Source of the DNA: Candidatus Mediterraneibacter avicola
Lineage (GTDB): Bacteria > Bacillota > Clostridia > Lachnospirales > Lachnospiraceae
Direction of reading: 5' to 3'
NCBI GenBank assembly: GCA_019115385.1
Contig: DXDR01000025.1
Span: 1 to 64,000, forward strand
Length of the DNA: 64,000 nt
Shown here: in pieces, positions 10,091 to 53,439 of the stretch
Layout of the letters: each line of letters begins with the position of its first letter
Position numbering within the stretch: the first letter of the stretch is position 1
The notes under the pieces: generated by a model
Told to the model about the DNA's origin: nothing
The model's database searches: none
What the model saw: only the letters and a program-made list of their open reading frames with translations
Position numbers and translations under genes: made by a program

Positions 10091-10236
10091 ACAGAAAACA
10101 TTCCGATATCACGATCCAATAAAATGTAAGTAAAATTTTCGTAAATGTAATTATGAAATTAAATTTTCATTTCATTATGAATCAAATAGTACAGAAACTG
10201 GCACCACCTTATCTGCTTCCCGAGCGATTTTATCAG

Positions 10237-10297
10237 AAAATTCAGAAAACGGAGCCAAAAGGGGCCTGACCCCTTTTGGCTCCGTTTTCTGAATTTT
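10237..10297. terminator. Long perfect hairpin (28-bp stem) downstream of rubredoxin
   Basis: Two 28-base arms starting AAAATTCAGAAAACGGAGCC and ending AAAAGGGG are exact complements around the loop CCTGA. The arm ends in TTTT in both directions and a T6 tract follows on the plus strand. It lies 20 bases after the rubredoxin stop and so would end that transcript. The stem is unusually long for a simple terminator and may be a dispersed palindromic repeat. Confidence 0.75.
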
Positions 10298-10316
10298 CCG
10301 ATTTTTTAATCTGAGC

Positions 10317-49011: not shown

Positions 49012-50733
49012 ATGCATACAATTAAAAAATTCATTGCGTATTACGGGCCGTACAAGGCGGTCTTTTTTATTGATCTTTTGTGCGCTGCCATGATCAGCCT
49101 TGTGGATCTGGCCTATCCCCAGATTCTGCGCACACTGACCAACACTCTCTTCACAGAGGACAGCAGCGCCATCCTGCGCGTTCTTCCACTGATCGCAGGC
49201 GGGCTTCTGCTTATGTACATCATACAGAGTCTGTGCAAATATTATGTCAGTTACCAGGGCCATATGATGGGCGCACACATGGAGCGTGATATGCGCCAGC
49301 GGCTTTTTGACCACTACGAGAAGCTATCCTTCTCCTACTACAGCCGGAATAATTCAGGACAGATGATGAGTAAGCTTGTATCCGACCTGTTTGACATTGC
49401 CGAGTTTGCCCACCACGGGCCGGAAAATCTCTTTATTTCCGTGGTTAAAATTATCGGTTCCTTTGTGTTCCTCTTCCTGATCAACTGGCGGCTCGCCCTG
49501 CCTTTGATCGCGCTGGTCATCTGCATGTTTCTCTTTTCTTTCCGGCAGAACAGCCGTATGCAGGAAACGTTTATGGAAAACCGGCGCAAAATAGGAGACG
49601 TGAACGCCAGCCTTCAGGATACCCTCGCCGGCATCCGGGTCGTTCAGTCCTTCACAAACGAAGATATCGAGCGCGAAAAATTCAGGAAAAGCAACCATGC
49701 TTTCCTTCTCTCCAAAAGAGACAACTATAACTGTATGGGAAGCTTCATGGGATGGAACCTGTTCTTCCAGGGCATGATGTACCTGGTAACTCTGGTATTC
49801 GGAGGATATCTTATCGCCCACGATCTGATGGATGTGGCAGATCTTGCCATGTATGCCCTGTATATCGGTATTTTTATCAGCCCGATCCAGATCCTTGTAG
49901 AATTGATTGAAATGATGCAGAAAGGTCTTGCGGGCTTCCGCCGCTATCTGGATGTGATCGAAACGGAGCCGGATATCGAGGACGCGCCGGACGCGGCGCC
50001 TCTGGAAAACGTAAAAGGACGTGTCTGCTATGAAGACGTCTCCTTCCACTACAGCGATGACGATACGCCGGTGCTCTCTCATGTATCATTTGAGATTCCC
50101 GCCGGAAAATCTGTGGCCCTTGTAGGCCCTTCCGGCAGCGGAAAAACAACGATCTGTTCTCTCCTGCCCCGCTTCTATGACGTAACCGGAGGCAGGATCA
50201 CAGTAGACGGAAAGGACGTGCGCACACTCACCCTGAAAAGCCTGAGAAGCCAGATCGGCATGGTCCAGCAGGATGTGTACCTCTTCTGCGGCACCATCCG
50301 CGACAATATCGCATACGGCAGACCCGGCGCCTCCCAGGAGGAAATCGAAGAAGCCGCAAAACGCGCAAATATCCACGACTTTATTACAGGACTTCCAGAC
50401 GGATATGACACCTATGTTGGGGAACGGGGAACCCGCCTCTCCGGAGGGCAGAAACAAAGAATTTCCATAGCCCGGGTGTTCCTGAAAAATCCTCCGATCC
50501 TGATCCTCGACGAGGCCACAAGCGCTCTGGACAATGAAAGCGAACGCTGGATCCAGCAGAGTCTGGAGGAACTGTCCAAAAACCGCACTACCATCACGAT
50601 CGCGCACCGCCTTTCCACCATACGAAATGCGGATGAGATCATCGTGATAACGGAAGACGGGATCGCAGAGCGGGGAACACATGAAAGCCTGCTCGAAAAA
50701 GGCGGGATTTATGCCCATTACTATAATATGTAA
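49012..50733 (+). CDS. ABC exporter, fused membrane and ATP-binding domains
   Basis: 573 residues of the MsbA/LmrA-type (ABCB) exporter family. The N-terminal transmembrane domain (about 1-310) has six hydrophobic segments, starting FFIDLLCAAMISLVDLAYPQ. The nucleotide-binding domain has Walker A GPSGSGKTTICSLLPRFYD near residue 370, signature RLSGGQKQRISIARVF near 475, Walker B ILILDEATSALDNES, and the H-loop IAHRLSTI. It exports a lipid, peptide or drug; the substrate is unknown. The ATG follows GGAGGAATTATC. Stop TAA at 50731-50733 is the first three bases of a 13-bp terminal repeat of the adjoining palindromic element. Confidence 0.93.
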   Translation: MHTIKKFIAYYGPYKAVFFIDLLCAAMISLVDLAYPQILRTLTNTLFTEDSSAILRVLPLIAGGLLLMYIIQSLCKYYVSYQGHMMGAHMERDMRQRLFDHYEKLSFSYYSRNNSGQMMSKLVSDLFDIAEFAHHGPENLFISVVKIIGSFVFLFLINWRLALPLIALVICMFLFSFRQNSRMQETFMENRRKIGDVNASLQDTLAGIRVVQSFTNEDIEREKFRKSNHAFLLSKRDNYNCMGSFMGWNLFFQGMMYLVTLVFGGYLIAHDLMDVADLAMYALYIGIFISPIQILVELIEMMQKGLAGFRRYLDVIETEPDIEDAPDAAPLENVKGRVCYEDVSFHYSDDDTPVLSHVSFEIPAGKSVALVGPSGSGKTTICSLLPRFYDVTGGRITVDGKDVRTLTLKSLRSQIGMVQQDVYLFCGTIRDNIAYGRPGASQEEIEEAAKRANIHDFITGLPDGYDTYVGERGTRLSGGQKQRISIARVFLKNPPILILDEATSALDNESERWIQQSLEELSKNRTTITIAHRLSTIRNADEIIVITEDGIAERGTHESLLEKGGIYAHYYNM

Positions 50734-50740
50734 ATTTGTA

Positions 50741-50921
50741 TTTGTGGGTGGAAAATGTCCGCCGGGGAGTCCGGGTATGGTGCCGGAGAGCTCACTTTCG
50801 TTCGGACGCGGCGCAGCAGTACGTAAGAGCGCAAAAGACGCGCTCTAAGTGCCGGCGCCACTTTACGGTTCTCCATCACCATACCCGGACTCCTCGGCTG
50901 CGTTTTTCCACTCACAATTTC
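50741..50921. repeat. Large hairpin 1 of the palindromic element
   Basis: Arms include TTGTGGGTGGAAAA near 50749 against TTTTTCCACTCACAA near 50904, and GAGTCCGGGTATGGTG (50767-50782) exactly against CACCATACCCGGACTC (50877-50892). The apex has AGAGCGC/GCGCTCT near 50826-50846. Arms of about 45 bp pair with few mismatches, then looser inner pairing. Confidence 0.8.
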
Positions 50922-51094
50922 AAATTCAAACAAGAAGAAACGAAGACAGAACTTTATCGGCTGACACAAGACTGTATTCCGTACGGTTGTTTGAAAGAAG
51001 GTGTATTTTCCTGTTTCAAAAGCGGAAATCGGATAAACAGTCATCCGTAGTCGAAAAAGTTCTGTCTTTGTTTTTGTTTGTTGAATTTGAAATT
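50916..51094. repeat. Large hairpin 2 of the palindromic element
   Basis: Outer arms AATTTCAAATTCAA (50916 onward) and TTGAATTTGAAATT (51081-51094), continuing with AAGACAGAACTTT against GTTCTGTCTTTG. Nested GACTGT/ACAGTC and TTTGAAA/TTTCAAA arms fill the centre. Confidence 0.8.
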
Positions 51095-51109
51095 ATCAGT
51101 GGCAGTGCC

Positions 51110-51420
51110 GATTGGGAAAAGAACAGAAAATGGCGGAATACGGACGATGGGATGCGACTTTCGGATAGCAGCTGCGGGAAATTTCGGCGACTTGAAGCGT
51201 AATTTAGTAAAACTTAAAACCCTGAGTACAGGCGTTAGGATTTTCAATGGATCTGTCCGAACGGTACGTGAGTTTCCATTGAAAATCCTGCTTTTAGCCT
51301 GTGCTCAGGGTTTTGTAGTTTTAATTATTACGCGGAACGGAGCTGAAATTTCCCGCAGCCGCTATCCGAAAACGATTTATTCTCACTTTGTATTCTGAGA
51401 TTTTCGGACTTTTTTCAATC
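51110..51420. repeat. Large hairpin 3 of the palindromic element
   Basis: The longest palindrome, arms of roughly 140-150 bases. Well-paired blocks are TTTCGGATAGCAGCTGCGGG near 51160 against CCCGCAGCCGCTATCCGAAA near 51352, AAAACCCTGAGTACAGGC near 51216 against GCCTGTGCTCAGGGTTTT near 51297, and the apex AGGATTTTCAATGG / CCATTGAAAATCCT (51237-51250 and 51276-51289). Confidence 0.85.
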
Positions 51421-51443
51421 CCATACCGCAGATAAATACAAAT

Positions 51444-53363
51444 TTATTTCTCCACTTTTCTCTCTGTTCTGCTGCTGATCTCTCCTTGGATCTGAGCAAT
51501 GAACTCTTCCAGGCCTCTCTGCCCTTCGTCTCCGGCAAAGCGGCTCCTGACGGAAACCTTTTCTTCTTCCTCTTCTTTTGCCCCTACCACGAGCATATAA
51601 GGAATTTTTTTCATCTGCGCCTCGCGGATCTTATAGCCGATCTTCTCTGCGCGGGTGTCGATCTCTGCGCGGATCCCGGCCGCCTTGAGCGCGTCAAGTA
51701 CTTTTGTGCCATATTCCATATGCTTATCGGAAATAGGCAGCACTTTCACCTGCACCGGGGCAAGCCAGGTTGGGAATGCGCCTGCAAAGTGCTCGATCAG
51801 GATGCCGATAAATCTTTCAATAGAACCAAATACAACCCTGTGGATCATGATCGGTCTGTGTTTCTCTCCGTCTGCTCCCGTGTATTCCAGGTCAAAACGC
51901 AGCGGGAGCTGGAAATCAAGCTGGATAGTTCCGCACTGCCATGTTCTTCCAATGGAATCTTCCAGATGGAAGTCGATCTTTGGCCCATAGAAAGCGCCGT
52001 CCCCTTCATTTACAACATAAGGAAGGCCAATATCATCCAATGCGCTGCGGAGAGCGTCCGTTGCCATTTCCCAGTCCTCATCGCTTCCCATACTGTCCTC
52101 CGGACGGGTGGAAAGTTCTACATGATACTTGAACCCGAACAGGCTGTACACCTGGTCGATCAGCCTTACAACCCCCTTGATCTCGTCCTTGATCTGTTCC
52201 GGTGTCATAAAGATGTGGGCATCGTCCTGGGTGAAACAGCGTACACGCATAAGGCCGTGAAGCTGGCCGGATTTCTCATGGCGGTGTACAAGGCCGAGTT
52301 CACCCATACGGATGGGAAGATCCCGGTAAGAACGAGGTTCAGACTGGTATACAAGAATACCGCCCGGACAGTTCATGGGCTTGATGGCAAAGTCTTCCTC
52401 GTCGATCACCGTTGTATACATATTTTCTTTATAATGATCCCAGTGTCCCGACGTCTCCCAGAGATGACGGCTCAGCATGATGGGCGTGGAGATTTCCACA
52501 TAGCCTGCCTGATCATGGATTTCTCTCCAGTAGTCAAGAAGAGTATTCTTAAGAACCATTCCGTTTGGCAGGAAGAAGGGGAACCCGGGGCCCTCCTCAC
52601 GCATCATGAACAGTCCCAGTTCTTTTCCGAGTTTTCTGTGGTCGCGCTTCTTTGCCTCTTCGATCATAGTCAGATACTCTTCCAGTTCTGCTTTCTTCGG
52701 AAATGCGGTACCGTAGATCCTCTGGAGCATTTTGTTGTGCTCGTCGCCTCTCCAGTATGCGCCTGCAAGGCTCGTCAGCTTGAATGCCTTTACCGGTTTT
52801 GTCGTCATCAGATGAGGGCCTGCGCACAGATCCGTAAATTCCCCCTGGGAATAGAAACTGATGGTCTCGTCTTCGGGAAGATCCTCGATCAGTTCTACCT
52901 TGTAGGACTCGTTTTTCTCTTTAAAATACTCAATGGCCTCATTTCTGGGCATAGTATACTGTTTGATCTCCAGGTTTTCCTTGACGATCTTTTTCATCTC
53001 CGACTCGATCTTTTCCAGATCTTCCACAGTAAACGGAGTCTCTCTGTCCACATCATAGTAAAATCCGTCAGCAATAGACGGCCCGATGGCAAGCTTTGTC
53101 TCCGGGTACAGGCGCTTGACAGCCTGAGCCATAATGTGGGATGCAGTATGGCGGAACGCGCCTTTTCCTTTGTCGTCGTTAAATGTCAGGATATTCAGAG
53201 CACAATCGTGATCCACTACGGTTCTCAGATCTACGATCTCGCCGTCCATCTCTCCGGCTGTTGCCACTCTGGCAAGTCCTTCGCTTAAATCTGCAGCAAT
53301 GTCATACACGCTCACAGGATTCTGATACTCTTTACATGAGCCGTCTTTCAGTGTAATCTTCAT
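51444..53363 (-). CDS. thrS: Threonyl-tRNA synthetase
   Basis: 639 residues charging tRNA-Thr. The N-terminal TGS domain starts MKITLKDGSCKEYQNPVSVY; the editing domain contains HTASHIMAQAVKRLYPETKL near residue 75 and LCAGPHLMTT; the class II catalytic core has motif 2 FRLVHRHEKSGQLHGLMRVR-like sequence, zinc ligands in the MNCPGGILVYQ region, and motif 3. The C-terminal anticodon-binding domain follows. ATG at 53363 has AAAGGA upstream; earlier in-frame starts lie inside the leader. It is regulated by the T-box at 53440-53794. Stop TAA at 51446-51444 begins the terminal repeat of the palindromic element. Confidence 0.97.
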   Translation of the reverse strand: MKITLKDGSCKEYQNPVSVYDIAADLSEGLARVATAGEMDGEIVDLRTVVDHDCALNILTFNDDKGKGAFRHTASHIMAQAVKRLYPETKLAIGPSIADGFYYDVDRETPFTVEDLEKIESEMKKIVKENLEIKQYTMPRNEAIEYFKEKNESYKVELIEDLPEDETISFYSQGEFTDLCAGPHLMTTKPVKAFKLTSLAGAYWRGDEHNKMLQRIYGTAFPKKAELEEYLTMIEEAKKRDHRKLGKELGLFMMREEGPGFPFFLPNGMVLKNTLLDYWREIHDQAGYVEISTPIMLSRHLWETSGHWDHYKENMYTTVIDEEDFAIKPMNCPGGILVYQSEPRSYRDLPIRMGELGLVHRHEKSGQLHGLMRVRCFTQDDAHIFMTPEQIKDEIKGVVRLIDQVYSLFGFKYHVELSTRPEDSMGSDEDWEMATDALRSALDDIGLPYVVNEGDGAFYGPKIDFHLEDSIGRTWQCGTIQLDFQLPLRFDLEYTGADGEKHRPIMIHRVVFGSIERFIGILIEHFAGAFPTWLAPVQVKVLPISDKHMEYGTKVLDALKAAGIRAEIDTRAEKIGYKIREAQMKKIPYMLVVGAKEEEEEKVSVRSRFAGDEGQRGLEEFIAQIQGEISSRTERKVEK

Positions 53364-53439
53364 CTCATTTTTCCTTTCCTGTTTTATTTTCTGTTTCAGG
53401 AGTGATTTTATTTCTGCGGGCCGCACAGTCTTTGGCTTA

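Follow-up and report, generated by a model that had tools for sequence, protein, structure and literature searches.

A candidate family of non-coding interspersed palindromic elements at gene ends in Lachnospiraceae

The interval between the ABC exporter gene and thrS

The window, i.e. the whole 64,000-nucleotide stretch of DNA that was analysed (C3:1-64000 of genome G000), contains an ABC exporter gene and the thrS gene in convergent orientation. The entire stop-to-stop interval is occupied by a 716-bp element with the order of parts of a full-length composite: terminal repeat, hairpin A, hairpin B, hairpin C, terminal repeat. The features are as follows.

49012..50733, plus strand: flanking ABC exporter gene, 3' end exactly at the element
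50731..50743, plus strand: left terminal inverted repeat TAAATTTGTATTT, bases 1-3 being the ABC exporter stop codon
50733..50926, plus strand: hairpin A, a hypervariable long stem P1 and a conserved core (from inverted-repeat pairing and homologues in the same genome)
50769..50892, plus strand: stretch matched by R1, the covariance model of hairpin A, in the whole-genome model search of G000
50791..50807, plus strand: apical motif of A, CTCACTTTCGTTCGGAC, containing the small covarying hairpin GC-UUUC-GC
50908..51102, no strand: hairpin B (outer arms; inner arms 50929-51082), connecting A and C
51159..51371, minus strand: hairpin C, pointing inward from thrS, long, with conserved internal loops
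51205..51326, minus strand: stretch matched by R2, the covariance model of hairpin C, in the model search of G000
51254..51274, minus strand: apical motif of C (minus-strand sequence AACTCACGTACCGTTCGGACA), resembling the apical motif of A
51434..51446, minus strand: right terminal inverted repeat, its final 3 bases being the thrS stop codon (minus strand)
51444..53426, minus strand: flanking thrS gene, 3' end exactly at the element

In profile searches thrS scored above the equivalog cut-off; the best model for the exporter was MsbA, with a score under the MsbA cut-off. The 13-bp terminal repeats form a perfect pair whose outermost triplets are the TAA stops of both genes, as an earlier sequence-only reading had it. 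The three large hairpins that it described as filling the gap were recovered as inverted-repeat pairs with arm complementarity of 82% (A), 82% (B) and 76% (C), and the two longest inverted repeats in the window (among those of at least 25 nt, at most 300 nt apart) are arms of the element. The closing stem around a multi-way junction, also drawn there, is the predicted fold: positions 1-12 of the element would pair with positions 705-716 with probability 0.61-1.0. The minimum free energy of the element folded as RNA is -362.2 kcal/mol, compared to -195.8 +/- 6.4 kcal/mol for shuffled sequences (n=20, z = -26). The statement that the interior has no coding frame holds as an interpretation rather than literally, as there are overlapping ORFs of 104-117 aa; these look like by-products of the palindromes.

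Distribution of the family and its position relative to stop codons

The models of hairpins A (R1, 31 rows) and C (R2, 19 rows) both include the copy in the window, in the latter case as L202. As only the best first-look candidates were scored in each genome (60, 17 and 12 for A in the genus, family and class searches, respectively, and 18 in the R2 search), copy numbers are lower bounds. With this limit, hairpin A was found in 44 of 58 genomes of the genus, with 1 to at least 47 matches each, and, at the class level, in 7 of 291 genomes, all seven of them Lachnospiraceae. Homologues of hairpin A occur in the genome of the window itself; there are many copies per genome, and near-identical copies are found at unrelated genes of one genome. 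Terminal inverted repeats and the modular architecture are also seen in G020 and in another genus (G110), although the terminal repeat of G110 is quite unlike that of G020. The units measure approximately 200-900 bp, single hairpins being about 200 bp and composites hundreds of bp. Seven loci taken from G239 were not matched by the core profile.

The hairpin A model matched 83 of 200 Lachnospiraceae genomes, one genome per genus, of this major gut family, and yet Rfam (release 15) yielded zero matches above the gathering score in the whole window. At relaxed thresholds the element produced matches only far under threshold, mainly to miRNA models, and the three matches at 18 other loci were a T-box, Clostridiales-1 and a tRNA. 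Nothing credible having been obtained, a known RNA family is rejected or weakened. The same holds for phage or plasmid cargo, since searches of plasmids, phages and (by exact pattern) viral contigs gave no element match. The elements form a large, apparently uncatalogued family of non-coding hairpin elements in Lachnospiraceae.

The position relative to genes is most precise in G020, where 22 of 29 terminal-repeat matches lie within 3 nt of a stop codon (ORFs of 60 aa or more). The background is 6.3% for positions up to 120 nt downstream of the stops of such ORFs and 5.3% for those after any stop trinucleotide. For the 154 cores of hairpin A, 28 of which were left out as too near the contig end, a same-strand stop codon lies at most 100 nt upstream in 88 of the 126 usable cases. 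The stop codons themselves (52 TAA, 30 TGA and 12 TAG among the 94 cores with a stop within 250 nt) are used at rates close to the background of 260, 211 and 82. The distance from stop to core is 37-95 nt in 73 of 80 loci where the A end faces a stop, and broad (17, 69-239 nt) in the 16 loci where it faces a start. By the tests applied, anchoring is weaker elsewhere: it was seen for 8 of 40 matches of a loose pattern in the genome of the window and for 9 of 26 matches in G110 (where the left end passes in 8 of 13 loci), and in other genera a stop lies no more than 80 nt from where the model begins at 20 of 40 loci. As to whether the stem base follows the stop codon more closely than the sequence end does, 17 of 88 cases fell within 3 nt, a number inside the permuted range (mean 10.6, maximum 20).

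Among the 96 classified loci (40 edge and 18 far loci left out), 46 lie between convergent, 45 between codirectional and 5 between divergent genes. The element therefore does recur at other convergent gene pairs, a search that the sequence-only reading had called for. Its suggestion of a two-sided 3' end for convergent genes survives in part: the elements may play such a role there, but they are not confined to such pairs. In codirectional pairs there is an A-first bias of 34:11. In the classification as a whole one locus, L086, is counted as C-first although it is A-first by its sequence.

The history of individual sites was considered at several loci. The stop codon of thrS is native, as the last 15 residues of ThrS align between L202-L204 and L205, a relative that is free of the element. 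Nothing of the short interval of G022 is recognisable beside the window element, which fills the whole gap, a state at odds with a clean insertion. At nine G020 loci, compared by eye and unblinded, the orthologous stops in element-rich relatives are nearly always occupied, often by an element of another type. Function or old fixed sites fit this at least as well as active mobility does.

Pairing, mismatches and the conserved core

The stems change in sequence while near-strict Watson-Crick pairing is kept. Two-sided changes far exceed one-sided ones, with the reservation that the pair counts of alignments A1 and A2 favour structures predicted from the same rows, and that A4 and A5 were aligned by fitting to the model. 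A1 was made from 32 representatives, with L181 and one L131 copy (truncated) dropped and the window copy added; A2 consists of 22 finds of hairpin C minus L012 and L102 (truncated), and A3 lacks L005 as well. In one of five covariation measures, the number of further pair types in A4, the value was not above shuffles (109 versus 112.6). The small helices of the three-way junction of A also covary. Homologues and compensatory changes, whose joint absence would have spoken for a local duplication in the sequence-only reading, are both present, and the arms do covary as it had envisaged.

Covariation alone does not establish its further proposal, that selection may act on the pairing, because correction of palindromes by template switching can also generate two-sided changes. 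One possibility is that the elements are passive, i.e. old functionless repeat copies in which template switching during replication keeps the arms complementary. The excess of two-sided changes and the rarity of wobble pairs are as expected of such template-copied arms. However, in 31 diverse copies of hairpin A 17 alignment columns are invariant and 28 more are conserved at 90% or above, the ends of the elements are anchored at stop codons, and the mismatches are skewed in one direction in three alignments, all of which makes a passive origin distinctly unlikely. The conserved core, rather than covariation, is the better evidence for selection.

The mismatches were counted on the gene-sense strand. 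In hairpin A, G:T makes up 0.4% and A:C 2.7%, compared to 20.8% and 0.7% in the SRP RNA (RF01854; 30 loci, L339 left out), which is the sole control and evolves slowly, so that hypervariable RNA stems may hold fewer wobbles. In absolute numbers, 60 rows of A contain 63 A:C and 10 G:T mismatches when one conserved U:G column is left out, and 63 and 47 when it is included, whereas the SRP RNA of the same bacterial family has 13 A:C and 459 G:T. In other genera the corresponding counts, with the conserved column included, are 30 and 16. The skew has the same direction in three alignments: it is the strand antisense to the adjacent gene that tolerates wobble. Such a comparison of G:T and A:C by strand could help to tell DNA-level from RNA-level palindromes in other repeats.

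These counts bear on the idea that the 3' UTR of the adjacent gene contains a regulatory RNA with a defined structure, a variant of the structured RNA that had been listed for the window element. The stable predicted fold, the three-way junction with its covarying small helices and the A-first bias in codirectional pairs would fit it. However, G:T well above A:C, as expected of an RNA of the gene-sense strand, is not seen in A with the SRP RNA as the only yardstick. The near-absence of wobble and the antisense skew argue against an ordinary 3'-UTR RNA, which we regard as extremely improbable, and for either a hairpin acting at the DNA level or an antisense terminator.

Termination, mobility and recombination

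The elements could be functional 3' ends, namely strong bidirectional or antisense terminators that halt transcripts at the stop codon and shield the gene against opposing transcription. The near-strict Watson-Crick pairing would then reflect a need for folding on both strands, or chiefly in the antisense transcript. The large share of convergent loci and the skew toward the antisense strand agree with this, as does the continued occupation of orthologous stops across element-rich species, judged by eye. Low-GC Firmicutes are known to carry stem-loops shortly downstream of stop codons (PMC1590033). By raw counts, taken without a shuffled baseline, a T tract (at least 6 T in 8 bases, in the 55 nt that follow the A core) is present at convergent loci in 22 of 44 cases, at codirectional loci in 8 of 18, at close codirectional loci in 5 of 13 and at C-first loci in 0 of 3.

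However, this amounts to 35 of 78 A loci, leaving about half of them without a T tract, and a simple scan found no terminator in the window element, its single match lying inside the ABC gene. The reading as an ordinary terminator is weakened by this. The T tract is also no rarer inside operons: the impression that the operon copies at fabG-fabF lack it was not upheld, since the richest 8-base stretch has 6 T in four of the five copies and 4 T in the other. Moreover, the conserved core of approximately 77 nt is superfluous for a terminator, and element-free species show ordinary-looking short terminators at the same genes (by eye). The elements share with intrinsic terminators, including bidirectional ones, a stem-loop at gene ends, often convergent and sometimes with a T tract, but are far longer, have a conserved structured core and form a dispersed homologous family. 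Fremin and Bhatt (2021) describe 250 palindromic candidates for structured RNAs, of which 230 were predicted to act as terminators (PMC8040213); the comparison covered four palindromic examples named there, and these differ in being mostly or entirely from Bacteroidetes. On balance, a host function at the 3' end seems somewhat doubtful.

Our preferred reading, with a probability of roughly 0.45, is that the 716 bp belong, as a full-length composite, to a family of palindromic, non-coding DNA elements interspersed in Lachnospiraceae genomes, non-autonomous, putatively mobile or recombining, and anchored at gene ends. A palindromic mobile element had been one of the initial suggestions, and it stays the leading class given the multiple copies, terminal repeats and stop anchoring, the mobility itself being putative. 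The structure would be read as DNA, either as a folded bottom strand or as a cruciform, and a putative hairpin-recognising enzyme acting in trans would copy or recombine the element, with the conserved tip as its probable recognition site. Insertion or retention directly after a stop codon would allow the 3' end of a gene to be occupied without harm; copies would be homogenised within a genome, and occupied loci would persist. If the elements are mobile, they shape gene ends genome-wide; if functional, they represent a novel type of element at gene ends.

The analysis did not find an enzyme for this. Inspection by eye of the recurrent neighbours of the 154 A cores, where profile identity checks covered FabG and FabF of L020, revealed no transposase-like protein, which weakens the case for an element-encoded transposase. 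The Y1 domain (PF01797) has no match in G056 (100% complete, at least 28 A matches), G048 (at least 28) and G060 (at least 16), and it is present in G001, G003, G008, G052, G022 and G023, which have no A matches among the best candidates scored. Mobilisation of the RAYT/REP type is therefore rejected or weakened, as Y1 genes do not follow the A copy number; a Y1 protein may have been a past mover. The elements resemble REPs and BIMEs with their RAYT (IS200/IS605-like) transposases in being non-coding interspersed extragenic palindromes in mosaic and tandem arrangements. They differ in the size of the units, the variable stems, the conserved tip, the stop anchoring and the lack of Y1 covariation: REPs measure 20-40 bp and carry a GTAG (or CGTC) end (PMC3733652), and both the hairpins and the composites exceed this size.

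With bacterial MITEs the elements share terminal inverted repeats, multiple copies and the lack of a recognised gene. The Efa stem-loop repeats of Enterococcus likewise prefer gene 3' ends (PMC1590033). However, the stem sequence is not conserved here, the terminal repeats differ between two genera while the anchoring stays, and no parent transposon was recognised by eye near the 154 A cores. The ends adjoin stop codons, and no target-site duplication could be separated from the repeat itself; TA-duplicating (IS630-like) insertion is rejected or weakened, since the ends also adjoin TGA stops.

Integron integrases act at attC boxes RYYYAAC and GTTRRRY. In integrons, attC sites lie behind genes, their stems are variable yet complementary, and the bottom strand is favoured. 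An attC-like site-specific recombination at folded bottom-strand sites behind genes, shuffling genes or gene ends, would by analogy share this logic: a position behind the stop codon, a variable complementary stem and an antisense-strand bias. The downstream neighbour of thrS does differ, being the convergent ABC gene in G000 and a same-strand gene in G020, but this may be an ordinary rearrangement. No attC boxes were recognised by eye, the named flanking genes are core genes rather than cassettes, the elements are far longer, and neither cassette arrays nor a series of successive genes with a site behind each were noticed in passing. Recombination of this kind is very unlikely.

A bolder version of the preferred mobile or recombining element, unlikely as it stands, is that folded bottom-strand hairpins, known by their shape and conserved tip and not by the sequence of the stem, are joined precisely to the stop codons of core genes and copied, inverted or exchanged by a putative enzyme, an independent attC-like logic working across whole chromosomes and at any stop triplet. 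If true, it would be an undescribed DNA system of Lachnospiraceae, chromosome-wide rather than in cassette arrays. Independently of this version, the family raises the questions of how a DNA element could be placed with base-exact precision at a stop codon, whichever triplet it is, and what would read a hairpin with a free stem sequence but fixed pairing and tip. An ORF of 101-149 aa lies inside three near-identical G020 copies and is taken as a chance reading frame.

The element and its computed structure

The intergenic feature considered here is:

50731-51446, 716-bp element between an ABC exporter gene (+ strand) and thrS (- strand)

The two TAA stop codons hold the outer ends of its perfect 13-bp inverted repeat, and the interval between these terminal repeats is occupied by three large imperfect hairpins, A (50733-50926), B (50908-51102) and C (51159-51371), just as the sequence-only reading had described. 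The RNA fold of the element is 26 standard deviations below shuffles (n=20). The predicted ensemble has a multi-way junction closed by the terminal repeats, in agreement with the earlier drawing. Elsewhere in the window, what looks like an ordinary strong terminator lies at 10232-10302; it is a 33-bp palindrome, nearly perfect, with a loop of 5 bp.

All structures of A and C are computed. Hairpin A is predicted to be a three-way junction. Its outer stem is hypervariable, its core is conserved, with 17 columns invariant, and the third part, a tiny GC-UUUC-GC hairpin, covaries (G-C/A-U). In 31 diverse rows of A, 93.0% of cells pair vs 71.9% in shuffles, and 305 cells carry two-sided changes, compared with 93 in shuffles and at most 74 in slid structures. 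The 40 model-aligned matches to A in other genera pair in 94.7% of cells and have 585 two-sided cells (162 in shuffles, at most 122 in slid structures); further pair types, one of five measures, were not above shuffles in this set. Two-sided changes occur in 53 of the 57 predicted pairs of C.

The full order terminal repeat - A - B - C - terminal repeat is the same in the window and in one of the compared genomes, G020. Other copies are solo, paired (A-A) or internally deleted in appearance. Hairpins A and C have a common apical motif, about CTCRCnnnCGYTCGGAC, reading inward from the stop codon. Tandem arrays of A occur in Anaerobium acetethylicum (L158, 5119-5737, 164-bp spacing) and at G183:C21:12420-12920 (187-bp spacing). 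Three near-identical G020 copies (L038, L092, L098) contain a recurring ORF of 101-149 aa, probably by chance. A third hairpin type D, identified by eye, was seen at the same kind of site, after a stop codon, in loci L234, L262, L252 and L270. It has segments recurring across loci (CGCTTTACCTCA, TGTAACG, CTAACA, AGAAC, GTGTATTCGGAACGCTCC) and is perhaps a permuted relative of A.

Distribution of the family

In the element's own genome the 716-bp query gave 21 matches, four of them being the element itself and its own palindromes; the others are seven A-like, seven C-like and three short matches. A 200-bp hairpin A query matched in 13 of 41 genomes including the own one, all of the same genus, and in none of the 16 genomes from the order's other families. 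Named genomes, scanned with an exact pattern, gave 93 stretches; among the matches listed, with labels resting on 80 of the 93, Mediterraneibacter was the commonest, the other labels being Anaerobium, Brotaphodocola, Eisenbergiella, Acetatifactor, Lachnoclostridium or Ruminococcus. The element's genus is taken here to be Mediterraneibacter.

The covariance model of A, built from 31 rows, has matches in 44 of 58 genomes of the genus (1 to 47 per positive genome, as lower bounds), in 83 of 200 Lachnospiraceae genomes, each of a different genus, and in 7 of 291 genomes of the class, all seven listed as Lachnospiraceae; three more listed Lachnospiraceae in the latter set were negative for this model. 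The C model matched in 20 of the 200 Lachnospiraceae genomes, and the weakest of these matches may be chance hairpins. No viral contig matched an exact pattern, DNA searches in plasmids and phages were without a match, and no Rfam family matched. Titles and abstract beginnings among the literature matches listed contained no description of the family, subscription papers, preprints and supplements being outside the scope of that search.

Anchoring at stop codons and turnover of the sites

The G020 copies have a common left end, which starts at the upstream gene's stop codon, and a right end formed by the inverted terminal repeat (AAATTCCGGATTTATC...GATAAATCCGGAATTT); if the downstream gene converges, this right end is usually at its stop codon. 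With genes called by simple ORF rules, 22 of 29 terminal-repeat hits in G020 lie at most 3 nt from a stop that ends an ORF of 60 aa or more. The corresponding baselines are 6.3% for positions up to 120 nt past such stops and 5.3% for those after any stop trinucleotide. The same test holds for 8 of 40 hits in the own genome, where a looser pattern was used (baseline 6.2%), and for 9 of 26 hits in G110, a genome of another genus (baseline 6.4%), many hits in both genomes being internal or chance. The near-identical copies of G110 have a quite different terminal repeat (AAACTGTAGGTTAAAGG...) and start directly after stop codons at 8 of 13 loci (ORF test).

Among 126 usable fetched cores of A, 88 are preceded within 100 nt by a stop on the same strand, and 18 have a convergent one no further away than that on the opposite side; 55 of all stops sit 50-66 nt ahead of the core. 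Stop codons are used there at about background proportions, so that the end of a reading frame, not one trinucleotide, seems to be the anchor. Anchoring is looser in other genera, where 20 of 40 matches have a sense stop no more than 80 nt from the A model start.

The thrS stop in the window is native, as the last 15 residues of ThrS can be aligned with those of G022, a close relative in which only a short interval separates thrS from the ABC gene. This element-free interval (L205) starts, right after the thrS stop, with TAAATCCGGATCC, which resembles the terminal repeat and may be the scar of a lost element.

Orthologous 3' ends of nine G020 loci were read by eye in relatives. In informative cases the same stop codon is followed by some element type in 7 of 7 (G002), 7 of 8 (G004), 5 of 5 (G007), 3 of 4 (G006, two cases stopping at a contig edge) and 1 of 3 (G005), and the orthologous stops are unoccupied in G003 (0 of 6), G001 (0 of 3) and G008 (0 of 3). 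The type (A, C or D) often changes between species. Simple recent insertion fits this occupancy less well than do hot spots, or old occupied sites whose content has been homogenised or replaced. A FabG-like/FabF-like gene pair flanks a copy of A in seven loci, L020, for which the identities were checked by profile, and six others. In these copies, from several species, the genes are codirectional, and some have an outer stem of other sequence (AACCAAC...), likewise starting at the stop codon.

Mismatch types and possible nature of the element

Covariation alone does not decide between DNA and RNA, as template switching can also copy arm onto arm. In our chosen control, the SRP RNA (RF01854) of Lachnospiraceae (29 rows), thin as a single control RNA, there are 459 G:T vs 13 A:C cells and wobble is 20.8%. 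With one conserved U:G column omitted, the counts are 10 G:T vs 63 A:C in A (60 non-redundant rows) and 11 vs 30 in A from other genera; with this column included they are 47 vs 63 and 16 vs 30. C has 16 G:T vs 37 A:C, and wobble of 2.0%. In sign tests made by sequence, p is 1.3e-7 (A), 0.029 (A, other genera) and 0.039 (C), values that are optimistic owing to related sequences. These counts point to nearly strict Watson-Crick pairing, any tolerance of mismatches lying chiefly on the strand that is antisense to the gene with the abutting stop. Such a pattern argues against this gene's 3' UTR being the target of selection, and is compatible with a folded bottom DNA strand or with an RNA transcribed from the opposite side.

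The strongest rival explanation is a host-functional terminator, bidirectional or antisense. It draws on the position of 46 of 96 classified loci between convergent genes and on a T tract in 35 of 78 loci, a count made without a shuffled control; we consider it rather unlikely. Our preferred, still tentative, reading is a palindromic, non-autonomous DNA element whose shape and tip are recognised (probability roughly 0.45).

On present evidence the Y1 transposases (PF01797), the family covered by the analysis of protein association with the elements, are not the mobilising enzyme. Many genomes of the genus, whether or not they have elements, encode a diverged Y1-like protein (about 260-310 aa); one example is G000:C75:7204-7533 in the own genome, and similar single loci occur in many others.
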